From Paracoccus homiensis (GTDB lineage: Bacteria > Pseudomonadota > Alphaproteobacteria > Rhodobacterales > Rhodobacteraceae), in the NCBI RefSeq assembly GCF_900111675.1, contig NZ_FOHO01000008.1, positions 62,001-126,000 of the forward strand: DNA of 64,000 nucleotides, in the 5' to 3' direction. Under the pieces are notes generated by a model, which was not told the DNA's origin, made no database searches, and saw only the letters and a program-made list of their open reading frames with translations. This document shows, piece after piece, positions 4,306 through 62,540 of the stretch (position 1 is the stretch's first letter; each line of letters begins with the position of its first letter). The position numbers and the translations under genes were made by a program.

Positions 4306-5679
4306 ATGGTTCTTGACCCTGAAATCGCGATGATCCGGCTGGGCTATGGTCTGTCGCCGGACAGCCCGCAAGCGGTCGATGCCGATCTGCTGCTGGCGTC
4401 GGTCGCGACGGCCCGGCCCGATGCGGATGCGATCCGCATGGCCGATATCGACGCCCGCCGGCAGGTCGAAAACGATCTGGCCGCCGCAGCCCGAAAGCCC
4501 GGATCGGACAAGCCGACGCAGCGCAAATCGGCCCGGATGCGGCGTGAGACGATCTGGATGGCGCAGCATGCCTTTCAGGTGCGTGTCGCGCGTGCGGTGG
4601 CTGATCCCGTGGGTTTTGGCGAAAGGCTGGTGCAGTTCTGGTCCGATCACTTCACCGTCGCGGGCGGCAACCGCTTTCAGTCCCTGATTGCCGCCGCCCA
4701 TGTCGACGAGGCCATTCGTCCGCATCTGGGGGGGCGTTTTTCCGATCTGATGTTCGCGGCGGAAACCCACCCGCGGATGCTGACCTACCTGAACCAAAGT
4801 GGGTCCGTCGGGCCGAATTCGGCCATTGCCAGGCGGCGCAAGGATGACGATCTGGGCCTGAACGAAAACCTTGCCCGCGAAATGATCGAACTGCACAGCC
4901 TTGGCGTCGGCGGTGACTATACCCAGCGCGACGTGAGGCAACTGGCGCGGCTGCTGACCGGGCTTAGCTATCGGGCGGGGCAGGATCGGGCCTTTCGTCC
5001 GGCCATGGCCGAACCCGGCGCGGATACCGTGCTGGGCGTCACCTATGGCGGCAATGGACAGGCCAGCCTGAACGATATCCGCGCGGTGATCGACGATCTG
5101 GCCATGCATCCCGACACCGCGCGGCATCTGGCCCGCAAACTGGCGGTGCATTTCGTGTCCGACGATCCGCCCGCCGATCTGATCGACCGTCTGGCGCAGA
5201 CCTATCGGCAGGCGGATGGCGATCTGTCCGTGGTCTATGTCGCCCTGGCCGAGGCCCCCGAACTGGCCGCTGGATTTCGGCAGAAGGCCAGGCAGCCCTT
5301 TGATTTCGTCGTCGCCGCGCTGCGTGCGCTGGGGATGCGGGGGGGCGATCTTCGGCAATTGGACCGGCGCGATTCGAACGGGCGGCTGTTGCGCCCGCTG
5401 CAGACCATGGGACAGCGATGGGCCATGCCGCGCGGTCCCGATGGCTGGCCCGAAAGCGCCGAAAGCTGGATCACGCCGCAGGGGCTGGCCGCGCGGATCG
5501 ACTGGTCGATGCGGCACCCGGCCAAACTGCTGGGCGATCTGCCCGATCCGCGCGATTTCTTGCGGACCGCGCTGGGTTCGACCGCGTCGCAATCGCTGCA
5601 ATGGGCGGTTCCGAAGGCGGAATCGCCGCGTGAGGGGGTGGCGATCGTGCTGGCCTCGGCCGATTTCAACCGGAGGTGA
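4306..5679 (+). CDS. DUF1800 family protein, partner of the following DUF1501 gene
   Basis: A 457-residue protein of the DUF1800 family. The diagnostic block is LVQFWSDHFTV near residue 110, then NLAREMIELHSLGVGGDYTQRDVRQLARLLTG around 190-225, and LARKLAVHFVSDDPP near 280. No signal peptide is evident at the chosen ATG, which is preceded by GAGG. DUF1800 proteins are nearly always encoded beside DUF1501 proteins, as here, with the next ATG four bases after this stop. Their biochemical role is not established; the pair is usually described as exported and of unknown function. The family call is firm and the function is open. Confidence 0.85.
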   Translation: MVLDPEIAMIRLGYGLSPDSPQAVDADLLLASVATARPDADAIRMADIDARRQVENDLAAAARKPGSDKPTQRKSARMRRETIWMAQHAFQVRVARAVADPVGFGERLVQFWSDHFTVAGGNRFQSLIAAAHVDEAIRPHLGGRFSDLMFAAETHPRMLTYLNQSGSVGPNSAIARRRKDDDLGLNENLAREMIELHSLGVGGDYTQRDVRQLARLLTGLSYRAGQDRAFRPAMAEPGADTVLGVTYGGNGQASLNDIRAVIDDLAMHPDTARHLARKLAVHFVSDDPPADLIDRLAQTYRQADGDLSVVYVALAEAPELAAGFRQKARQPFDFVVAALRALGMRGGDLRQLDRRDSNGRLLRPLQTMGQRWAMPRGPDGWPESAESWITPQGLAARIDWSMRHPAKLLGDLPDPRDFLRTALGSTASQSLQWAVPKAESPREGVAIVLASADFNRR

Positions 5680-5683
5680 CGCA

Positions 5684-6862
5684 ATGCTGTCACGACGCTT
5701 GTTCCTGAAATCTTCGGCGCTGATCGGCTGTTCGGCGGCGGCGCATCCGTTGATGTCCAGCATCAGCTTTGCCTCGGCCCCCGGTGAAAACCGGCTGGTG
5801 GTGATCATCCTTCGTGGCGCGATGGACGGTCTGGACGCGTTTCAGCCCTATGGCGATCCGATGCTGCGACAGCTGCGACGCAAGCTGTCGCAGGGACCCG
5901 ATCAGGGCGCGACCGATCTGGACGGTTTCTTCGCGCTGCATCCGGCGTTGTCGCCGCTGATGCCGCTGTGGCGTTCAGGCGAATTGGCCTTCGCGCCTGC
6001 GGTATCCACGCCCTATCGTGACAAGCGCAGCCATTTCGACGGGCAGGGCCTGCTGGAGGCCGGGATCCCGTCCGAGGATGATCTGCTGGCGCGCAAGGAT
6101 GGCTGGCTGAACCGGTTGCTGCAACAGATGCCGGGGGCACGGGCGCAGACCGCCTATGCCATCGGGCTGGATGACATGCAGATTCTGGATGGTCCGGCCC
6201 CGGCGCGCAGTTGGGCGCCCGAAGCTGGCTTCAACCTGTCGGGGCAGGCGCAGCGGCTTCTTGAACATGTCTATCACGACGACCCGTTGTTTCAGGCCGC
6301 CGGCGATCAGGCGATGGAGATTGCCGGCGCGGGCATGCAGGTCGAACAGGAAGATCCCGGTCCCGCCCGCGACGCGCGGATGCTGGCACGGTTCGCCGCG
6401 GATCGGCTGAACGGCGAAACGCGGATCGCCAGCTTTTCGATTTCGGGATGGGACAGTCACGCCAATCAGAGCCGGATCATCGGCCGGTCGTTGCAGCGTC
6501 TGGCCGAGGCGATCATCACCCTGCGCGACACGCTGGGGCCGAACTGGGGGCGCACGACGGTACTGGCGATGACCGAATTCGGGCGCACGGTGCGCGAAAA
6601 CGGAACGGGTGGCACCGATCACGGCACGGGCGGTGCGATGCTGATGGCGGGCGGCGCCATTCGCGGCGGTCGCGCCTATGGCGAATGGCCGGGTCTGGCC
6701 GAGGGCGATCTGTATGCCGGGCGCGACCTTATGCCGATGCGCGACATCCGGGCCTATGCCGCCTGGGCGATGCGCGATCTGTATGGCATCCCCCGCGACG
6801 CGCTGGAACGCGACGTGTTTCCGGGGCTGGAGATGGGCGACAATCCCGGCGTCTGGGCCTAG
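5684..6862 (+). CDS. DUF1501 family protein with twin-arginine signal
   Basis: A 392-residue protein beginning MLSRRLFLKSSALIGC, a clear S-R-R-x-F-L-K Tat signal, so it is probably exported folded through the TatABC translocon encoded at 31.8-33.4 kb. The mature part has alkaline-phosphatase-superfamily-like features common in DUF1501: RLVVIILRGAMDGLDAF at the start, a DKRSHFDGQ block, ISGWDSHANQ, and TEFGRTVRENGTGGTDHGTGG, rich in Asp and His that could bind metal. It sits four bases after DUF1800 and the two surely form an operon. Its stop overlaps the stop of the convergent response regulator by four bases. The substrate is unknown. Confidence 0.85.
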   Translation: MLSRRLFLKSSALIGCSAAAHPLMSSISFASAPGENRLVVIILRGAMDGLDAFQPYGDPMLRQLRRKLSQGPDQGATDLDGFFALHPALSPLMPLWRSGELAFAPAVSTPYRDKRSHFDGQGLLEAGIPSEDDLLARKDGWLNRLLQQMPGARAQTAYAIGLDDMQILDGPAPARSWAPEAGFNLSGQAQRLLEHVYHDDPLFQAAGDQAMEIAGAGMQVEQEDPGPARDARMLARFAADRLNGETRIASFSISGWDSHANQSRIIGRSLQRLAEAIITLRDTLGPNWGRTTVLAMTEFGRTVRENGTGGTDHGTGGAMLMAGGAIRGGRAYGEWPGLAEGDLYAGRDLMPMRDIRAYAAWAMRDLYGIPRDALERDVFPGLEMGDNPGVWA

Positions 6863-7590
6863 ACCTCGGCCACCTTCGACAGCCGATCCTGAACCAGCCC
6901 GCTGATCCGCGCCAGATCGGTCGCAACCGCGTGCCCGGCCTGATGATCGCGGGCCAGTGCCGTTGCGGCCTGTTCAAGGTCGTCGTCATGCGCCGACCGC
7001 GCCACCCCCGCCAGAAATCGGGCGATATAGTCGATGGCGGCCGTGTCCTGGGCCGAGGACAGGATTTCGGCCACATGTGCCAGATCGTCACGCAGGCCGG
7101 ACGCGTCCGGCTGGATCATGTCATCGGGCAGAATGCGCGGCCCCGCAGGTACCGCCTGGGGCAGGGCCGACAGGATCGCCTGCTGAAATACCGCCAGGCT
7201 TTCGACCGGCTTGGCCAGAAACCCGTCCGCGCCTGCCTGCATGGCATTGTCGCGCATGTCCGGGTCGCCCGAGATGCCCAGAACGACCGGCACGCGCGGT
7301 TCGCATGTGGCGATCTGGCGGATCAGGTCGGCGCCATCGCCGTCGGGCAGCCCCAGATCGACGATCACGACCGTCGGGCGATAGGTCTTCAGATGCCGCG
7401 CCGCCGACCGCAGGCAATCGGCACGGCGGATGCGGGCCCCGGATCGCAGGCACAGCAGGCGCACCGCCTCGCTGGCGAAGCGCGAATCCTCGACGACAAG
7501 AACGGTCAGCCCGGTCAGTGGACGACCCGGCAGCGACATGCGCCAAAGAGGCAGCGCCTCTCCCATGGTGGTTCCGACTTCTGTCAGCAT
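6859..7590 (-). CDS. Response regulator with N-terminal extension and helical C-terminal domain
   Basis: In this 243-residue protein residues 28-145 form a CheY-like receiver: acidic pair E34/D35, phospho-acceptor D78 in VVIVDLGLPDGDG, switch Ser107 in GISGDP, and the conserved Lys127 in FLAKPVE. The last 80 residues are an alpha-helical stretch with no DNA-binding or enzymatic motif I recognise; it may be a dimerisation or histidine-phosphotransfer-like bundle without a clear active His. The start at 7590 has AGGAAA upstream. No kinase is adjacent. A CtrA-like box at 7643-7657 lies 53 bp upstream, so I infer cell-cycle-type control. The receiver assignment is secure; the output is unknown. 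Confidence 0.85.
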   Translation of the reverse strand: MLTEVGTTMGEALPLWRMSLPGRPLTGLTVLVVEDSRFASEAVRLLCLRSGARIRRADCLRSAARHLKTYRPTVVIVDLGLPDGDGADLIRQIATCEPRVPVVLGISGDPDMRDNAMQAGADGFLAKPVESLAVFQQAILSALPQAVPAGPRILPDDMIQPDASGLRDDLAHVAEILSSAQDTAAIDYIARFLAGVARSAHDDDLEQAATALARDHQAGHAVATDLARISGLVQDRLSKVAEV

Positions 7591-7642
7591 CTCTGTTTCC
7601 TCATCCGAGTGTGACGATACGTTTTAGTTAACGAATGATTCC

Positions 7643-7657
7643 CTAAGAACGGGTTAA
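7643..7657 (-). promoter_or_regulatory. Near-consensus CtrA binding site upstream of the response regulator
   Basis: On the minus strand the sequence reads TTAACCCGTTCTTAG, matching the alphaproteobacterial CtrA box TTAA-N7-TTAA with one mismatch in the last base. It lies 53 bp before the start of the response regulator gene. It is a motif match only. Confidence 0.45.
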
Positions 7658-7720
7658 TCCCCTCGTTTTCCTTTTCCTGACGGCGCTGAAGCCCTAGAAC
7701 TTCGACAAACGGAGGATCCC

Positions 7721-8125
7721 ATGATCGGAAAGCTGAACCACGTCGCCATTGCCGTCCCCGATTTGCAGGCCGCGGCGGCCCAATATGAAAACACCCTTGG
7801 CGCGACGGTGCGCGCCCCGCAGGACGAACCGGATCATGGCGTGACGGTGGTGTTCATCGACCTGCCGAACACCAAGATCGAACTTCTGTATCCACTGGGC
7901 GACGACAGCCCGATCAACGGCTTTCTGGAAAAGAACCCTTCGGGTGGCATCCACCACATGTGCTTTGAGGTCGAGGATATCATCGCCGCCCGCGACAAGC
8001 TGAAATCCGAAGGCGCGCGGGTGCTGGGCAGCGGCGAACCGAAGATCGGCGCACATGGCAAGCCGGTGCTGTTCCTGCATCCCAAGGATTTCAACGGCTG
8101 CCTGATCGAACTGGAGCAGGTCTGA
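7721..8125 (+). CDS. mce: Methylmalonyl-CoA epimerase
   Basis: A 134-residue protein of the vicinal oxygen chelate superfamily that interconverts (2R)- and (2S)-methylmalonyl-CoA. This supplies methylmalonyl-CoA mutase and links propionyl-CoA and ethylmalonyl-CoA pathways to succinyl-CoA. Seen in the sequence: KLNHVAIAVPDL with the first metal His (residue 7), IELLYPLGDDSPI, GGIHHMCFEVEDI with the central His, and LHPKDFNGCLIELEQV with the C-terminal metal Glu. Length and motif order match the family. An ACGGAGG ribosome site precedes the ATG. The stop overlaps the next ATG by one base (TGATG), giving a two-gene operon with DUF1467. Confidence 0.93.
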   Translation: MIGKLNHVAIAVPDLQAAAAQYENTLGATVRAPQDEPDHGVTVVFIDLPNTKIELLYPLGDDSPINGFLEKNPSGGIHHMCFEVEDIIAARDKLKSEGARVLGSGEPKIGAHGKPVLFLHPKDFNGCLIELEQV

Positions 8126-16317: not shown

Positions 16318-16484
16318 CAGCGGCGCCCCGGCAGGCAGGGGTTCGGGTCAGGGCTTCTCATACGGGCGTCTGGGCTTGAAAAATTCGCCATGCTGTGGGT
16401 TCGCAGCAAAGCCTAGCAACGAAATCATGACACGCCAAGCACCGAAAGCGGAACATGGTTTCCGCGCGCCCATGTTGCGGCAGA

Positions 16485-16519
16485 TTGACCGTCCTTTGGC
16501 TTTGGCTAGTGTGACGCGC
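16485..16519 (+). promoter_or_regulatory. Candidate promoter placing glnE transcription start at its ATG
   Basis: TTGACC at 16485-16490, a 17-base spacer, and a weak TAGTGT at 16508-16513 precede the glnE ATG at 16520. The predicted start site falls at or next to the ATG, and no Shine-Dalgarno sequence is visible in the preceding 20 bases. That fits a leaderless mRNA. The -10 matches only three of six consensus bases. Confidence 0.3.
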
Positions 16520-19309
16520 ATGGATTTCGTTGATCGCATCACCCGCTTTCCGCTGGCTTTGGATGCCGACCGCGCTGCGTCGGTATCCGCGCTGTTTGTC
16601 GCGGCCCCTGCGCCTTTGCAGAAACTGCTGAAGGGGGCGGCGGGGACCAGCCCCTATCTGGCGGGGCTGATCCAGAAAGAGGCCGACTGGCTGTTGGATG
16701 CGCTGCCGCATGAAGATGTGGTCGCCCGTGAAACCGCAGGGTTCGAGGCGTTGGATGCCGCCGAGCTGGGCGTGGCGTTGCGCCGGGCCAAGCGGCGGGT
16801 GGCGCTGTATACGGCGCTGGCCGATCTGGGCGGGGTCTGGCCGCTTGAAAAGGTCACTGGCGCCCTGTCCGATCTGGCGGATCGTGCCGTCGATCTGGCG
16901 CTGCGGGTGCATGTCGCGCATGAGGCACGGCGCGGCAAGCTGCCTGAAACCCAGGCCGATGCGGGGGGCATCTTTGCCCTGGCGATGGGAAAGGGCGGCG
17001 CGAAGGAACTGAACTACAGTTCGGATATCGATCTGATCGTCCTGTTTGACGAAACCGCCTATGACGAGGCCGATCAGCACGAGGCCCGTGCCGCGCTGAT
17101 CCGCGCGACGCGCAAGATGGCGGCGACGCTGTCTGACGTGACCGAACATGGATATGTCTTCCGCACCGATCTGCGGTTGCGGCCCGACGCCTCTGTCACC
17201 CCGGTCTGCATTTCGACCGCGGCGGCACTGGCCTATTACGAGGCCGAGGGCCGCACATGGGAACGCGCGGCTTTCATCAAGGCGCGCGCCGCCGCCGGGG
17301 ATATCGCGGCGGGCCAGCGTTTCCTGCGCGAATTGCGCCCCTTCGTCTGGCGCAAGCATCTGGATTTCGCGGCCATCCAGGACGCCCATGACATGCGTCT
17401 GCGGATCCGCGACCACAAGGGGCTGGGCGGTCGCCTGGACATTCCCGGCCACAATATGAAGCTGGGGCAGGGCGGTATCCGCGAGATCGAGTTCTTTACC
17501 CAGACCCGTCAGCTGATCGCGGGCGGGCGCGACCCCGATCTGCGGTGCCGAGATACTGTGGGCGGTCTGGCTGCACTTGCCCAAAAGGGGTGGATCCCGC
17601 AAGGCGTGGCCGATCGCCTGACCGACCATTACCGCGAGCATCGCGACATCGAACATCGCATCCAGATGGTGAATGATGCGCAGACCCACTGCCTGCCGAA
17701 AGATGCCGAGGGGATTGCGACCGTCGCGGCGATGATGGGACAGGACGATGCGGACCGGTGGTCCGAGCGTCTGAAATCCCGGCTGGAAGATGTCCATGAA
17801 CTGACGGAATCCTTCTTCTCGCCCACGGACGCCGCCCCCCGGCCCGACATCTCGGACGAGGCGCGGGCGATCATCGACCGGTGGCAGCACTACCCGGCGC
17901 TTCGGTCGCAACGCGCCCAGCAGGTGTTCCAGCGGATCGAACCAGAGCTTTTGTCGCGCATGTCCTGCGCCGGACAACCGGATGAGGTTCTGGCCCGGTT
18001 CGATGCGTTTCTGTCTGGCCTGCCTTCGGGCGTGCAGTTGTTTTCACTGTTCGAGGCCAACCCCCAGCTGATCGACCTGATCGTCGATATCTGCGGGACG
18101 GCGCCGGGGCTGTCGGCCTATCTGTCGCGCCATCCCGCCGTGCTGGATGCCGTGCTGGGGGGCAGTTTCTTCGCGGCATGGCCCGGCCCGCAATCCCTTC
18201 GCGACGATCTGGCAAAGCAGTTGAAGACCGCGCTGAACGCGCCGGGCGGGGGGTATGAACGTGCGTTGGACGCGGCGCGGCGGTGGGCGCATGAATGGCA
18301 TTTCCGCATCGGGGTGCATCATCTGCGCGGGCTGATCGACGCGGATGAGGCCGGGGGGCAATATGCCGATCTGGCCGATGCCTGCGTGGCGGCACTGACC
18401 CCGGTGACGGTTCAGGATTTCAGCCGCCGGCATGGTCCGCCGCCGGGCCAGGGCGCGGTTGTCCTGGGCATGGGGTCCCTGGGCGCAAGACAGCTGAATG
18501 CCGGGTCGGATCTGGACCTGATCGTGATCTATGACGCGGATGGTGTCGACAGTTCCGATGGACCCAAGCCGCTGACGGCGCGGCCCTATTATGCCCGGCT
18601 GACGCAGGCGCTGATCACCGCGGTTTCGGCCCCGACTGCCGAGGGCAGGCTGTACGAGGTCGATATGCGTCTGCGGCCTTCCGGCCGTCAGGGGCCGGTG
18701 GCGACCTCGGTCCAAAGCTTTGAAAATTACCAGATGACCGAAGCCTGGACATGGGAACATCTGGCCCTGACCCGCGCGCGGGTGGTCGGTCTGGCCGGCG
18801 AGAACGCGCAGCCTCTGGCCGACCGGATCGAAGAACTGCGCCTGTCGGTGCTGAAGGATCGTGGCGGGGACCCGCGGGTGATGCCGGATCTGGCGAAGAT
18901 GCGCGAACGGATCTTTGCTGCCAAGCCGGTCGATGGTGCGTGGGAGGCCAAGATCGGACCGGGTCGTTTGCAGGATATCGATCTTCTGGCGCAGTCCTGT
19001 GCCCTGCGGGCGGGCGAGCCGCAGCGCGGCACGCTTGCGCAATTGCGCTGTGGCAAACGCGCGGGCCTTCTTGGCGGGCAAGAGGCCGATCGACTGGCGT
19101 CATCCTATCGCCTGCTGTGGCGGATTCAGGGCTCGGCCCGGCTGCTGACCGAGCGCCCGCTGGATTTCGATGAGATCGGCCATGGCGGTCAGGTATTCCT
19201 GCTGCGCGAAACCAGCTGTGCGGATCTGGACGAACTGTCCAGCAGGCTGAATGCGGCCACCGAAGCCGCCGCAGCCATCATCGATACGCAATTGGGCCGC
19301 GTGGATTAA
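16520..19309 (+). CDS. glnE: Bifunctional glutamine synthetase adenylyltransferase/deadenylase
   Basis: A 929-residue enzyme that adds or removes AMP on glutamine synthetase under control of PII protein and glutamine. Two nucleotidyltransferase cores are seen: the N-terminal (deadenylylating) GGAKELNYSSDIDLIVLFD at about residues 157-175 and the C-terminal (adenylylating) MGSLGARQLNAGSDLDLIV at about 650-670. Each has the paired catalytic Asp. RTDLRLRPD and DMRLRPSGRQGP are the follow-on motifs of the two domains. Length is slightly below the 945-990 usual in enterics but normal for Rhodobacteraceae. I start at the ATG at 16520; the in-frame start at 16376 would add 48 residues with no family similarity. 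The stop overlaps that of the convergent glycosyltransferase. Confidence 0.95.
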   Translation: MDFVDRITRFPLALDADRAASVSALFVAAPAPLQKLLKGAAGTSPYLAGLIQKEADWLLDALPHEDVVARETAGFEALDAAELGVALRRAKRRVALYTALADLGGVWPLEKVTGALSDLADRAVDLALRVHVAHEARRGKLPETQADAGGIFALAMGKGGAKELNYSSDIDLIVLFDETAYDEADQHEARAALIRATRKMAATLSDVTEHGYVFRTDLRLRPDASVTPVCISTAAALAYYEAEGRTWERAAFIKARAAAGDIAAGQRFLRELRPFVWRKHLDFAAIQDAHDMRLRIRDHKGLGGRLDIPGHNMKLGQGGIREIEFFTQTRQLIAGGRDPDLRCRDTVGGLAALAQKGWIPQGVADRLTDHYREHRDIEHRIQMVNDAQTHCLPKDAEGIATVAAMMGQDDADRWSERLKSRLEDVHELTESFFSPTDAAPRPDISDEARAIIDRWQHYPALRSQRAQQVFQRIEPELLSRMSCAGQPDEVLARFDAFLSGLPSGVQLFSLFEANPQLIDLIVDICGTAPGLSAYLSRHPAVLDAVLGGSFFAAWPGPQSLRDDLAKQLKTALNAPGGGYERALDAARRWAHEWHFRIGVHHLRGLIDADEAGGQYADLADACVAALTPVTVQDFSRRHGPPPGQGAVVLGMGSLGARQLNAGSDLDLIVIYDADGVDSSDGPKPLTARPYYARLTQALITAVSAPTAEGRLYEVDMRLRPSGRQGPVATSVQSFENYQMTEAWTWEHLALTRARVVGLAGENAQPLADRIEELRLSVLKDRGGDPRVMPDLAKMRERIFAAKPVDGAWEAKIGPGRLQDIDLLAQSCALRAGEPQRGTLAQLRCGKRAGLLGGQEADRLASSYRLLWRIQGSARLLTERPLDFDEIGHGGQVFLLRETSCADLDELSSRLNAATEAAAAIIDTQLGRVD

Positions 19310-21387
19310 CCGACTTTGGCCATGGGCGGCGCGACCACGACAGGGATCGGAGTGGCGGGGCGGGGTGCCTCGCCGCGCTGGGCCGCGATCTCGTCCAGAC
19401 TGCGTCCGCCGATCTGGCCCAGAACCGGAACTTGCCGCATGTCGTCGGGCAGGATTTCGGTTTCGGCTTCGTCAAAGACGCCGTGGGCGGTCTTGTCCCA
19501 ATAGAAGGGATGGCGCACGACCTCGTAGATCGCTTTCCACCCGGCCAGACAGCCAAGCGGGAAATAGACGTGCAGCGTCGGCACCCACAGCGACAGATGC
19601 CGGTGCTTGGCCCCGCGCACGGCATAAAGGCCGATGGCCAGATTCAGCGTTTCTGTCGCGATGAACAGCGCCATCAGCCCCGGCAGCACCCAACCGCCCA
19701 AAGCGCCGTCCAGCGGGGTGCGCAGAAGATGGGGCAAGCCGAAGGCCAGCAGCCAGAAGCTCCAAAGCATCGGGGCCAGCAGGTACTGGCTAAGCATCGC
19801 CAGGAACTGCACCTGAAAACCGATGAAGCGGCGCGCGCCGAGATCGCGGCACAGCCCGACCGGGTCGCGCATATGCACGCCCCAAGTCATCGCGAATCCT
19901 TTCAGCCAGCGGGATCGCTGCTTGATCCAGGGGATGACACGGCAATTCGCCTCTTCGTCGGTGGTGGTGTCGATGATCTCGGTCGTCCAGCCGCGGCGGG
20001 CCAGACGGACGCCCAGATCCGCGTCCTCGGTGACGTTCCATGCGTCCCAGGCGTGGGCATCGTCCAGCGCGGCGCGCCGGAAAAAGCAGGTGGTCCCGCC
20101 CAAGGGCACCAACAGCCCCATCCGCGCAATGCCCGGTAGCAGAACCCGAAACCACGCCGCATATTCGACGGTAAAGCAGCGCGCCAGCCAGTTGGTGCGG
20201 GGGTTGTAAAAATCCAGCGCGCCTTGCAGGCAACCGACCCGCGCATCCGCGAAATGGAAATGCCGGGCGATGCGGTGCAGCTGATCGGGGTCGGGTCGGT
20301 CCTCGGCGTCCCAGATGCCGACGATGCTGCCGCGGCAGAAGTTCAACGCATAGTTCAGCGCGCGGGGCTTGGTCTTGATCGGCCCGTCGGGAACCTCGAC
20401 CACGCGCATCCATGCGGGCAGCTTCGCGCCTTTCAGCGCATCCTTGGTGACATGGTCGCTGGCCTCGATCGCCAGCAGGATGTCGGTCAGTTCGCGCGGA
20501 TAGGCCAGCCGCGCCAGCCGCGCGACAAGCTTGCCCGCGACATCGCTTTCCTGAAACAGCGGCACGATGACCGAGATCACCGGCAGGGGGCCATCCATCT
20601 GCGGCGGCTGCACCTTTGCGGCGGCCAGATCGCGTCGGGTGCGGGTCTCGGCCCGGTCATGCAGCACGGTATTGGCAAGGGCCAGCAGCTTCAGCGTGCT
20701 TTGCCCGATCAGTCCCAGTGTCACGATGGCGGTCAACCCGCCCAACAGCGCCGCCGGCACGAGCCAGACCGCGATCAAGGCCAGCAGGATGACGGCGACG
20801 GCCAGTCGGCCCACCATCGATTCATTCCGCGTGCGACAGCTTTCAGCGGCGGGCACGCAGGTTTCGGCCTGACGGATCAGGGCGATGCGACGTCGCGCAA
20901 GGACCGCGCCTTGCGCCTGCGCTTCGGTGCAAAGCAGCATTCGCACGGTGCCGAATTCGACAGGCATCCGGGGGATGAGCGATGCGAATTCCTCGGGGCG
21001 GGCGGTGGCGACCCAGGTTACACCGCCGATGCGACGCCAGGGCAGGACCGAATGCGCCAGGCAGAAATCGGCTCCGGCAAGGTCGATCAGGCGCGGGTCG
21101 CCAGGCGTTGCCGCCGGATCGATGGCGGAACAGCGCCATTGACGCGACAGCGCGCGGGTCAGGGCCTCTGGCGTGATCCAGCCCTGGGCCAGAAGGATCT
21201 GACCCAGACGCGCCTCTTGCCGACCGCGCAGCACCTGCGCTTTCAGCAGATGCGAGGGATCGACGACTCCGTCCTCCAGAAGGATCTGGCCCAATGGCTG
21301 CGGATTGCGAGGTGCAAGCGCCGCACAGGCATGCCCCGCGACAGGCGCGGGGGGCGTGGGGAACAGGTCTAACGCAGCCTCGGACAT
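19306..21387 (-). CDS. Membrane family 2 glycosyltransferase with N-terminal MshEN-like (c-di-GMP receptor) domain
   Basis: A 693-residue protein. Residues 31-54 and 60-83 form two 24-residue repeats separated by five residues: LGQILLEDGVVDPSHL, then RLGQILLAQGWITPEAL ending in Q83. This is the MshEN/GspE N-terminal pattern that binds cyclic di-GMP. A membrane segment follows at about 192-235. A processive GT2 domain (VISVIVPLFQE) then carries DAEDRPDP (DxD), TEDADLG, and QRSRW (QxxRW). At least three more helices lie near the C-terminus. This resembles cellulose-synthase-like or N4-adsorption-B-like enzymes that make an exported polysaccharide. No synthase partner is adjacent. The first repeat starts with P where R is usual and ends with R instead of Q. 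A perfect CtrA box lies 44 bp upstream. Confidence 0.85.
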   Translation of the reverse strand: MSEAALDLFPTPPAPVAGHACAALAPRNPQPLGQILLEDGVVDPSHLLKAQVLRGRQEARLGQILLAQGWITPEALTRALSRQWRCSAIDPAATPGDPRLIDLAGADFCLAHSVLPWRRIGGVTWVATARPEEFASLIPRMPVEFGTVRMLLCTEAQAQGAVLARRRIALIRQAETCVPAAESCRTRNESMVGRLAVAVILLALIAVWLVPAALLGGLTAIVTLGLIGQSTLKLLALANTVLHDRAETRTRRDLAAAKVQPPQMDGPLPVISVIVPLFQESDVAGKLVARLARLAYPRELTDILLAIEASDHVTKDALKGAKLPAWMRVVEVPDGPIKTKPRALNYALNFCRGSIVGIWDAEDRPDPDQLHRIARHFHFADARVGCLQGALDFYNPRTNWLARCFTVEYAAWFRVLLPGIARMGLLVPLGGTTCFFRRAALDDAHAWDAWNVTEDADLGVRLARRGWTTEIIDTTTDEEANCRVIPWIKQRSRWLKGFAMTWGVHMRDPVGLCRDLGARRFIGFQVQFLAMLSQYLLAPMLWSFWLLAFGLPHLLRTPLDGALGGWVLPGLMALFIATETLNLAIGLYAVRGAKHRHLSLWVPTLHVYFPLGCLAGWKAIYEVVRHPFYWDKTAHGVFDEAETEILPDDMRQVPVLGQIGGRSLDEIAAQRGEAPRPATPIPVVVAPPMAKVG

Positions 21388-21430
21388 GGGCGATTCCCTT
21401 TTGGAACGCCCTGTGGTGGCACGACCACGG

Positions 21431-21445
21431 TTAACAAGCGGTTAA
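21431..21445 (-). promoter_or_regulatory. Perfect-consensus CtrA binding site upstream of the glycosyltransferase
   Basis: On the minus strand the site and the following base read TTAACCGCTTGTTAAC, an exact match to the CtrA consensus TTAACC-N5-TTAAC. It is centred 51 bp before the glycosyltransferase start codon, in the 76-bp gap to carA. CtrA is the conserved cell-cycle and motility regulator of alphaproteobacteria. Confidence 0.65.
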
Positions 21446-21463
21446 ACGCGGCCGTGCGCCCGA

Positions 21464-22612
<1,149 letters not shown>

Positions 22613-22766
22613 GGCGGCACCCCTGTACTGAAAATCTGTCGGTGGATAGAGGGGCAGCGCGGCAAGGTCAAGTTCCCCGACGCGCGGTTTGGCTTGATTT
22701 TACACGTGGCCCGGCCTATGTCGCCAGCTTTCCTGCGCCAATCACGGCGCATCATCGGAGACTGTG

Positions 22767-23231
22767 ATGGATCTGCGTGCCAAGCTTCAAGCCGCAACCA
22801 AGGACGCCATGAAGGCCAAGGACAGTGCGCGCGTCTCGACGCTGCGCCTGATCGGGGCTGCCATCAAGGACCGCGAGATCGCCGCGCGGACCGGCGATGG
22901 CGAAGAGGGTGCCCTCAGCGACGCCGACCTGATCGCGATCATGTCGAAAATGGTCAAGCAGCGGCAGGAATCTTCGAAAGCCTATGAAGAGGGCGGGCGG
23001 CTGGAACTGGCTGCGAAAGAGGTCGATGAAATCGGCGTCATCCAGGAGTTCCTGCCCCGCCAGCTGACCGAGGGTGAAAGCGCCGAGGCGGTCGACAAGG
23101 TCGTGTCGGATCTGGGGGCCGAAAGCATCCGCGATATGGGCCGCGTCATGGCGGAACTGCGCGCCCGCTATGCCGGGCAGATGGATTTCGCCGCGGTCGG
23201 GCCGCTGGTGAAACAGCGCCTGTTGAACTGA
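22767..23231 (+). CDS. GatB/YqeY domain protein
   Basis: A 154-residue all-helical protein of the YqeY family. Seen: LRAKLQAATKDAMKAKDSARVSTLRLIGAAIKD at the N-terminus, IMSKMVKQRQESSKAYEEGGR in the middle, EIGVIQEFLPRQL, and MGRVMAELRARYAGQMDF near the C-terminus. The C-terminal half resembles the tRNA-binding tail of the GatB amidotransferase subunit, suggesting RNA or tRNA contact, but YqeY has no established function. The ATG at 22767 has GGAG six bases upstream; the in-frame GTG at 22764 is less likely. It is divergent from carA. Confidence 0.9.
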   Translation: MDLRAKLQAATKDAMKAKDSARVSTLRLIGAAIKDREIAARTGDGEEGALSDADLIAIMSKMVKQRQESSKAYEEGGRLELAAKEVDEIGVIQEFLPRQLTEGESAEAVDKVVSDLGAESIRDMGRVMAELRARYAGQMDFAAVGPLVKQRLLN

Positions 23232-61440: not shown

Positions 61441-62540
61441 TCCTGCGACTGGGGGCCATCGCCCTGATTCTGCTGACCGCGTCGCCGGCATCGGCACTTC
61501 ATCTGCCGGAATGGATGCGTTTCGGCAGCCATGCCTCGGTCGATCCGGGCCCGCCGCGACCGGTCGTGACGGAAATCGTGATGGATCAGGGCAGCGACGC
61601 CAGATCGGTTCCCGGCGTCATCGTGTCCCGGACCGAGGTGACGATGGCGTTTCAGACCCTTGGCCGCATGATTGCCCGCCATGTCGATCTGGGTGACCGG
61701 GTCGAGAAGGGGCAACTGCTTGCCGAATTGTCGACCGATGATCTGGTCGCCTCGACCCGGGCGGCGCGGGCCGCGGTCGATTCCGCCGAGGTGCAGCTGG
61801 AAACCGCCCGCACCACCTTGCAAAGGACCGAGGCCCTGGCGCGGCGCGACGTCGCCTCGGACTCGCAGTTGGAACAGGCGCAACAGGCGCTGGCCGCCGC
61901 CGAGGCGAATGCCGAACAGACGCGGTCACAGTTGATCCAGGCGCAGGATACCGAAGGCTATGCCCGAATGACGGCGCCGTTTTCCGGCGTCATCAGCGCC
62001 GTCTACGAGGCGTCGGGCGCAGTGGTCAGCGCCGGTGCGCCGGTGATGCAGCTATCCGCCGATGACACCCATGAGGCCGCCATCGACCTGCCCGAGGGCG
62101 CCTTGGCGGTGCTGCCCGACGACCCCGCCTTTACCGTCTGGCAGCGCCAGAATCCCGGCCACGAGGTTACCGCGACCATTGACCGGATCGAGCCTCTGGC
62201 CGATATCGCGACGCGCACCCGGCGGCTGTATCTGACCTTGCCGCCCGATGCGCCCTTCCGCCTTGGGGCGTTGATCCGGGCGCGACTGGGTGCGGCGGGC
62301 GAACCCGCCCTGACCCTGCCGGATGCCGCGATCCTGATGCGCGACGGGCAAAGCCATGTCTGGCGCGTGACCCGCGAAGGCGACAGCGCGACCGTCAAGC
62401 TGGTGCCGGTCCGGACCCGGCCCAGTTTCGAGGGGCGCTGCCTGATCCTGGACGGTCTTTCCGAGGGCGACGAAATCGTGGTGCGCGGCGTTCATCATTT
62501 GCAGCCCGGCCAGCAGGTCGGGCGGAGGGTCGATCCTTGA
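61437..62540 (+). CDS. RND efflux periplasmic adaptor 2 (HlyD/MFP family)
   Basis: A 367-residue second adaptor with a signal peptide (ILRLGAIALILLTASPASA). Seen: VPGVIVSRTEVTMAFQTLGRMIARHVDLGDRVEKGQLLAELS, a helical hairpin of about 65 residues (ARAAVDSAEVQLETARTTLQ...), YARMTAPFSGVISAVYEASGAVV, and a beta-barrel with ATIDRIEPLADIATRTRRLYLTL. It differs clearly in sequence from adaptor 1, so it is not a recent duplicate. Both adaptors overlap their neighbours by four bases (ATGA), giving one translation chain into the pump gene. Confidence 0.9.
   Translation: MILRLGAIALILLTASPASALHLPEWMRFGSHASVDPGPPRPVVTEIVMDQGSDARSVPGVIVSRTEVTMAFQTLGRMIARHVDLGDRVEKGQLLAELSTDDLVASTRAARAAVDSAEVQLETARTTLQRTEALARRDVASDSQLEQAQQALAAAEANAEQTRSQLIQAQDTEGYARMTAPFSGVISAVYEASGAVVSAGAPVMQLSADDTHEAAIDLPEGALAVLPDDPAFTVWQRQNPGHEVTATIDRIEPLADIATRTRRLYLTLPPDAPFRLGALIRARLGAAGEPALTLPDAAILMRDGQSHVWRVTREGDSATVKLVPVRTRPSFEGRCLILDGLSEGDEIVVRGVHHLQPGQQVGRRVDP

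Follow-up and report, generated by a model that had tools for sequence, protein, structure and literature searches.

What might an MshEN domain be doing on a membrane glycosyltransferase of Paracoccus homiensis? The gene that raises this question lies on contig NZ_FOHO01000008.1 of assembly GCF_900111675.1. We analysed positions 62,001 to 126,000 of the contig, a stretch of 64,000 nucleotides that we call the window and within which coordinates are given. The open reading frame occupies 19306..21387 on the minus strand, starts with ATG and encodes 693 residues. A sequence-only reading had described the product as a family 2 glycosyltransferase (GT2) fused to a tandem MshEN repeat, and as a candidate for control by cyclic di-GMP (c-di-GMP). 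That interpretation is largely right and is not new in kind. We consider it fairly probable that the protein is a c-di-GMP-controlled synthase, a reordered cousin of NfrB and the only reader of the PilZ or MshEN type found in most Paracoccus examined. Domain content, motif residues, conservation, synteny and co-occurrence were observed directly.

An MshEN domain at the N-terminus

Motif I (residues 31-54, 21226..21297) reads PLGQILLEDGVVDPSHLLKAQVLR and motif II (residues 60-83, 21139..21210) reads RLGQILLAQGWITPEALTRALSRQ. Both are on the minus strand, as are all parts of the protein described below. A linker of five residues separates them. The 24-5-24 spacing and the LGxxLLxxG element in both copies are thus as first reported. 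The NCBIfam profile NF053729, for the MshE-related c-di-GMP motif, covers exactly residues 31-83 (44.8 bits, cut-off 38, expectation value (E) 8e-12). The Pfam MshEN profile PF05157 also exceeds its cut-off (29.9 bits against 23.1). Its best stretch, residues 87-137, falls in the C-terminal subdomain (approximately residues 98-165, 20893..21096). A profile search of the N-terminus therefore assigns it to MshEN. The only rival Pfam match, DUF4388, is below its cut-off (E 0.068). On a 22-position motif score the protein reaches 21; none of 5000 shuffles of residues 1-180 equals this, the top shuffle reaching 19. Profile E-values, the fold described below and the shuffles together rule out a chance origin of the motifs.

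Motif II has the full set of ligand residues (R/L/G/L/L/Q), and every key position is canonical. Motif I departs from the R..L..L..Q pattern at three positions, P31, Q51 and R54, and keeps L47. The proline at motif position 1 and the arginine at position 24 had been noticed before; the count of two changes was wrong, Q51 having been missed. This glutamine sits where the pattern has leucine, equivalent to Leu29 of Vibrio cholerae MshE. It was also suggested that proline and arginine may lower affinity. However, both are found in Escherichia coli NfrB, which binds c-di-GMP with a dissociation constant of 1.0 µM (PMC8669469; here and below, papers are cited from partial text). Hence, these two changes need not weaken binding. 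PilF GSPII-C has a motif beginning with proline, yet its affinity is like that of MshE (PMC11731258). Changes to Arg9 or Gln32 of MshE cost at most approximately fivefold in affinity (PMC5013675). As judged from the residues, Q51 is the change in motif I to worry about.

To place these residues among relatives we used an alignment of 72 rows, comprising the window protein and 71 of 80 relatives. Five relatives were dropped because of stop codons or frame breaks; L202, L208, L216 and L228 were also left out. Paracoccus accounts for 52 rows, including the window protein. Among these, P31 and R54 each occur in 42, and together in 39. Residue 51 is variable (L 16, V 13, S 10, T 8, A 3, H 1, Q 1) and is polar in 20 of the 52. 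The second guanine site is better conserved, with L32 in 51 rows, R60 in 41, L76 in 52, L80 in 50 and Q83 in 49. The P. denitrificans orthologue has leucine, not glutamine, at the equivalent of residue 51 (position 21 of the motif). Hence, it is the better protein for binding tests. The N-terminal domain is likely to be a c-di-GMP sensor.

Predicted structure of the protein

AlphaFold2 modelling of the full protein used 72 sequences and gave a mean predicted local distance difference test (pLDDT) score of 81, with a predicted template modelling score of 0.79. The N-terminal 175 residues were also modelled alone (33 sequences, pLDDT 87.5). The best match to this second model is c-di-GMP-bound MshE (5htl), with a Z-score of 17.6 and a root mean square deviation of 2.1 Å over 137 residues. 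Next to this, c-di-GMP-bound PilF GSPII-B gives a Z-score of 16.3. Comparison with 5htl places both MshEN subdomains in the model. In the C-terminal subdomain, pLDDT is mostly >90, and VIA-align matches model residues 29-166 to MshE. As far as these models go, the MshEN fold is settled.

Two membrane helices probably connect MshEN to the catalytic domain. Hydropathy marks a clear hydrophobic stretch at residues 188-238 (20674..20826), and AlphaFold2 predicts helices at 189-209 and 211-255. The GT2 catalytic domain follows (approximately residues 266-500, 19888..20592). It scores 84.7 bits with PF13641, and Pfam GT2 profiles span approximately residues 270-551. Three motifs of this enzyme class are invariant in all 72 rows: DAED (residues 360-363, 20299..20310), a DxD-type nucleotide-sugar motif; TED (residues 453-455, 20023..20031); and QRSRW (residues 490-494, 19906..19920), the QxxRW of processive GT2 enzymes. 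The fusion of MshEN to a membrane GT2 bearing DxD, TED and QRSRW was thus correctly recognised, with the detail that "DxD" reads DAED. A further set of C-terminal helices (residues 518-625, 19513..19836) is the probable second membrane part; these helices are long in the AlphaFold2 model, and only residues 567-585 pass the hydropathy threshold. The conserved tail WDKTAHG (residues 630-636, 19480..19500) has a counterpart, WDKTTH, in NfrB.

In Foldseek searches the whole model best matches BcsA (4p00; E 7.5e-14), with a template modelling score of only 0.35 over the whole chain. The best fold matches of the glycosyltransferase are cellulose synthase, hyaluronan synthase and one mannosyltransferase, with similarly low whole-chain scores. 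Profiles for PgaC_IcaA and EpsU match all 72 rows (E up to 0.001). For the window protein, these scores are far under the equivalog cut-offs. Hence, it is not PgaC proper. Nor is it a cellulose synthase (CelA model, 36.4 bits against an equivalog cut-off of 699) or NfrB proper (NF008411, 52.5 bits against 1170). The P. denitrificans pxm locus is a different case, encoding a phosphoglycosyltransferase in another cluster (PMC13235738). We also rejected a C-terminal VLGQI, paired by BLAST with PLGQI of NfrB, as the relic of a second MshEN; that tail is not conserved in the 72 rows. The protein is probably a membrane enzyme that builds a surface sugar polymer.

Relationship to known systems

The closest parallel is NfrB of E. 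coli K-12, a c-di-GMP-activated GT2 of the phage N4 receptor system. NfrB likewise combines DAED, TED and QxxRW with MshEN. Its motif I is PLGQILLENQVITEEQLDTALRNR, in which P and R again fill positions 1 and 24. The WDKTxH tail is also common to both. Identity is 41% over 97 residues in MshEN and 25% over 451 residues in the glycosyltransferase. The domain order is reversed: glycosyltransferase then MshEN in NfrB, where DAED starts at residue 169, and MshEN then glycosyltransferase in Paracoccus. The motif linker is four residues in NfrB and five here, and Q51 is absent from NfrB motif I. NfrB is encoded in an operon with nfrA and ybcH, whereas the neighbours of the Paracoccus gene, identified by eye, are presumably carA and glnE.

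The MshEN (GSPII) domains of MshE, PilF and PilB share the tandem 24-5-24 motif, a four-helix N-terminal subdomain and an alpha/beta C-terminal subdomain (Z-scores of 11-18). In those proteins MshEN sits on a secretion ATPase; here it sits on a glycosyltransferase, and motif I is off at three positions. BcsA is likewise a membrane GT2 with TED and QxxRW. However, BcsA has a C-terminal PilZ domain, whereas no PilZ match was found in the Paracoccus protein among Pfam matches at E up to 1. The sequence-only reading had MshEN replacing the PilZ control of cellulose synthases. This is loosely put: the enzyme falls well short of the cellulose synthase cut-off, and the lack of a PilZ match in most Paracoccus genomes examined, described below, is the part that stands. 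BgsA, the mixed-linkage glucan synthase of Sinorhizobium, is another alphaproteobacterial glycosyltransferase with its own c-di-GMP-binding part (PMC5567048); by comparison, the Paracoccus protein has a recognisable MshEN.

Fusion of GT2 and MshEN has precedents in NfrB and in Wang et al. 2016, where MshEN fused to a glycosyltransferase is already mentioned in the text available. New here are the reversed domain order, the linkage to carA, the co-occurrence with GGDEF and the presence of MshEN without a PilZ match in most Paracoccus examined. We found no study of this gene, and none pairing "MshEN" with "Paracoccus", in a literature search that covered few subscription papers and not the supplementary tables of Wang et al. 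2016, which may list Rhodobacteraceae fusions.

c-di-GMP gene content and co-occurrence

Profile searches of the P. homiensis genome found two GGDEF proteins, one EAL protein, no PilZ and one MshEN protein, the one described here. One GGDEF protein has receiver (REC) domains; the other is overlapped by an HNOB (H-NOX) gene. Across 48 named Paracoccus genomes, P. denitrificans included, MshEN is always present, and always once at this gene. A survey of the genus had been suggested by the sequence-only reading; it gave one MshEN match in 47 genomes and two in the other. No match to PilZ was found in 43 of the 48, the remaining five having one.

The family sample comprised 198 genomes, in which a glycosyltransferase match was counted at E 0.001 or better. 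A homologue is present in 180, GGDEF in 187 and PilZ in 46. Hence, the c-di-GMP output of this large family of bacteria from sea and soil may pass chiefly through this enzyme. The glycosyltransferase is absent from all 11 genomes without GGDEF, compared to 7 of the 187 that have it (Fisher p 9e-14, kinship ignored). Scoring the weak matches in G017, G119 and G122 as absences changes the latter to 10 of 187 (p 1e-12). Excluding genomes without a full-length carA leaves absences in 9 of 9 and 4 of 184, respectively. Among the co-absences, G029, G109 and G167 are nested separately in the carA tree. In the GT-less genomes inspected, other genes sit after carA.

Several minor observations concern the same genes. 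The two P. homiensis cyclase genes are approximately 1 kb apart (locus L155; with the HNOB gene, the frames are 4713-6098 on the minus strand and 6538-7119 and 7056-8117 on the plus strand), placing much of the organism's c-di-GMP synthesis at one site. The second MshEN match is confined to G403, the genome of L176, where a 636-residue frame gives a near-complete profile match (C4:21317-21580). A UbiH-like FAD monooxygenase, identified by eye, follows carA in the GT-less genomes G029, G033, G090 and G167, and lies one gene later in G136.

Conservation of the locus and loss of the probable sensor

Of the 80 relatives retained, most carry Paracoccus in their titles, with identity of up to 72%. 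In 79 of these 80, the gene is directly preceded, on the same strand, by what we take to be carA; the remaining locus, L202, starts at a contig end. By extrapolation, the two genes are <400 bp apart at 76 of the 79 loci. The order carA-GT-glnE is held in Paracoccus loci of sufficient length. In the wider family, DNA was read for 149 of the 180 homologues (G022 was left out), and carA is upstream in 139. Residue counts for the family used 108 of the 149 rows. Outside the family, a full-length-like match was found in 8 of 190 genomes of the class (30-37% identity).

We scored a motif block as lost or degenerate if it reached at most 6 on a 14-point score or had more than three gaps in a MAFFT alignment. 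By this measure, the block is lost or degenerate in 32 of the 149 homologues, which keep the glycosyltransferase, and 29 of the 32 are still found after carA. Hence, the sensor is dispensable for the enzyme. As read from these alignments, the sensor has been dropped repeatedly and the enzyme retained. A PilZ protein taking over where the motif decayed is not indicated: PilZ is found in 13 of 69 genomes with a motif score of at least 11 and in 23 of 80 others (Fisher p 0.18). The motif score is at best weakly related to GGDEF gene number (Mann-Whitney p 0.053, Spearman -0.10).

Individual loci add detail. L075, L112, L136 and L145 contain orthologues after carA with the glycosyltransferase and no MshEN block. 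Some frames are short, at least those of L089, L137 and L152 (532, 414 and 443 residues, respectively), and may be broken or misassembled. In the Paracoccus haematequi copy (L164, 6001-7908), codon 424 of the matched stretch is an in-frame stop, representing either a real loss or a sequencing error.

A candidate receptor in Paracoccus denitrificans

Biofilm formation by P. denitrificans poses a puzzle that this enzyme may help to explain. The organism has two cyclases, one overlapping hnoX, together with one active and one inactive phosphodiesterase (PMC5588039). A cyclase overlapped by an hnoX/HNOB gene is thus common to P. denitrificans and P. homiensis. Cells lacking both cyclases overproduce biofilm, a phenotype tied to more of the adhesin BapA (PMC5588039). 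A 2025 paper called the effect unusual, and c-di-GMP in extracts was undetectable (PMC12582929). In the partial texts, the only receptors named are possible inactive EAL domains (PMC5588039), and PMC12582929 names none. MshEN is present at the gene described here, and PilZ is not matched in most Paracoccus examined. Hence, MshEN-GT2 is a good candidate for the receptor through which c-di-GMP would reduce biofilm in P. denitrificans. If so, the question for this model denitrifier shrinks to a few deletions and one titration. The gain is a testable receptor candidate for a genus in which c-di-GMP acts in an unusual direction.

Proposed mechanism and alternatives

The protein is plausibly a c-di-GMP-controlled synthase, on the strength of its motifs and profile matches. 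We infer ligand binding, activation, a polymer and an anti-adhesive effect, in the following scheme. Two cyclases, one encoded beside an H-NOX nitric oxide sensor, would make c-di-GMP, and a single EAL phosphodiesterase would remove it. The ligand would be held between both 24-residue motifs; the residues suggest a canonical site for guanine 2 (Arg60, Leu32, Leu76, Leu80, Gln83) and an NfrB-like site for guanine 1. Binding would shift MshEN relative to the glycosyltransferase and turn the enzyme on, as reported for NfrB. The enzyme would then polymerise a nucleotide sugar and thread the product through its own membrane helices, as DAED, TED, QxxRW and a fold like that of BcsA and hyaluronan synthase suggest. 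The polymer may act against attachment in Paracoccus; this would be consistent with the reported lowering of P. denitrificans biofilm by c-di-GMP. More tentatively, Paracoccus may possess a minimal circuit (two cyclases, one linked to nitric oxide via H-NOX, one active phosphodiesterase and this synthase as the single receptor of PilZ or MshEN type) that makes an anti-adhesive polymer, so that the signal lowers attachment. We regard this extension as rather doubtful. If true, it inverts the usual c-di-GMP rule and supplies the missing link for the P. denitrificans phenotype.

Several observations weigh against control of the synthase by c-di-GMP, and most bear on binding. Fold does not decide the matter, since Z-scores of binders and non-binders overlap: the binder GSPII-C (apo, 6ejf_G) scores 13.9 and the non-binder XpsE 13.8, with further non-binders at 11.4 (XpsE) and 11.1 (PilF GSPII-A). 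Of the three changes in motif I, Q51 replaces a leucine that stacks on guanine 1 and is the sole glutamine at this position among the 52 Paracoccus rows. The affinity of MshE falls more than tenfold when one hydrophobic residue is lost (PMC5013675). The P. homiensis MshEN could instead be decaying, its fold kept, its binding weak or gone through Q51 and R54 and its glycosyltransferase constitutive, while other Paracoccus orthologues bind. The 32 family homologues with a lost or degenerate motif block fit such a course, as does PilF GSPII-A, which pairs one good with one poor motif and does not bind (PMC11731258, PMC12002112). Binding by GSPII-A became measurable after reversal of three changes, one being the arginine that ends motif II (PMC12002112). 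However, the window protein retains an intact motif II and guanine-2 site, both profiles are over their cut-offs and NfrB binds despite its own P and R. We judge decay unlikely. Inhibition, with c-di-GMP binding but switching the glycosyltransferase off and the polysaccharide promoting attachment, would account for the excess biofilm of the double cyclase mutant. It runs counter to BcsA, which is activated by c-di-GMP. NfrB is also described as activated (PMC8669469), and the mutant phenotype has been linked to BapA. This option seems to us no likelier than decay. A third possibility is a non-processive enzyme that transfers sugars singly to a carrier lipid or protein, with MshEN serving to bind proteins or to oligomerise. 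By eye, the gene has no recognisable export partner beside it, a point that also counts against the synthase, and MshEN-type domains can bind proteins, as the Xanthomonas PilB N-domain does with PilZ (7lko). However, the TED and QxxRW of processive synthases are present, PgaC_IcaA and EpsU profiles match every row and the top folds are mostly cellulose and hyaluronan synthases. We find a non-processive enzyme the least probable of the three.

The link between synthase and GGDEF is open to criticism of another kind. It is uncorrected for phylogeny. Of the nine co-absences in genomes that have carA, six fall on deep branches of the carA tree, and five of these six genomes measure 1.9-2.6 Mb. Co-absence could thus reflect general genome reduction with no shared pathway, which we take to be a real possibility though not the expected one. 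It sits poorly with G029, G109 and G167 (3.5, 3.4 and 2.6 Mb, respectively), which occupy separate places in the carA tree, surrounded by other members of the family, keep carA and have other genes straight after it. Sequence coverage is a further concern. A full-length carA-like match is missing from five of the 18 GT-less genomes, and the locus may be unsequenced there; in G166 the contig stops 130 bp after carA, and the locus may just be missing. G017 has 16 GGDEF matches and counts as bearing the glycosyltransferase solely through a weak match (E 2e-11); carA is followed there by other genes. Motif quality also fails to follow the presence of PilZ, and the losses noted above leave the enzyme in place without its sensor. 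Other kinds of c-di-GMP receptor also exist, such as inactive EAL domains and CckA.

Gene neighbourhood

The upstream and downstream neighbours were named from their sequences, read by eye, and we take them to be carA (21464..22612, minus strand) and glnE (16376..19309, plus strand). No bcs genes were recognised by eye among the neighbours in the window. The spacing between carA and the glycosyltransferase gene is 76 bp, and a scan of 21200-22900 found no terminator-like site. Co-transcription of the two is possible. On the other side, glnE converges on the glycosyltransferase gene, and the two share 4 bp at their stop codons (19306-19309).

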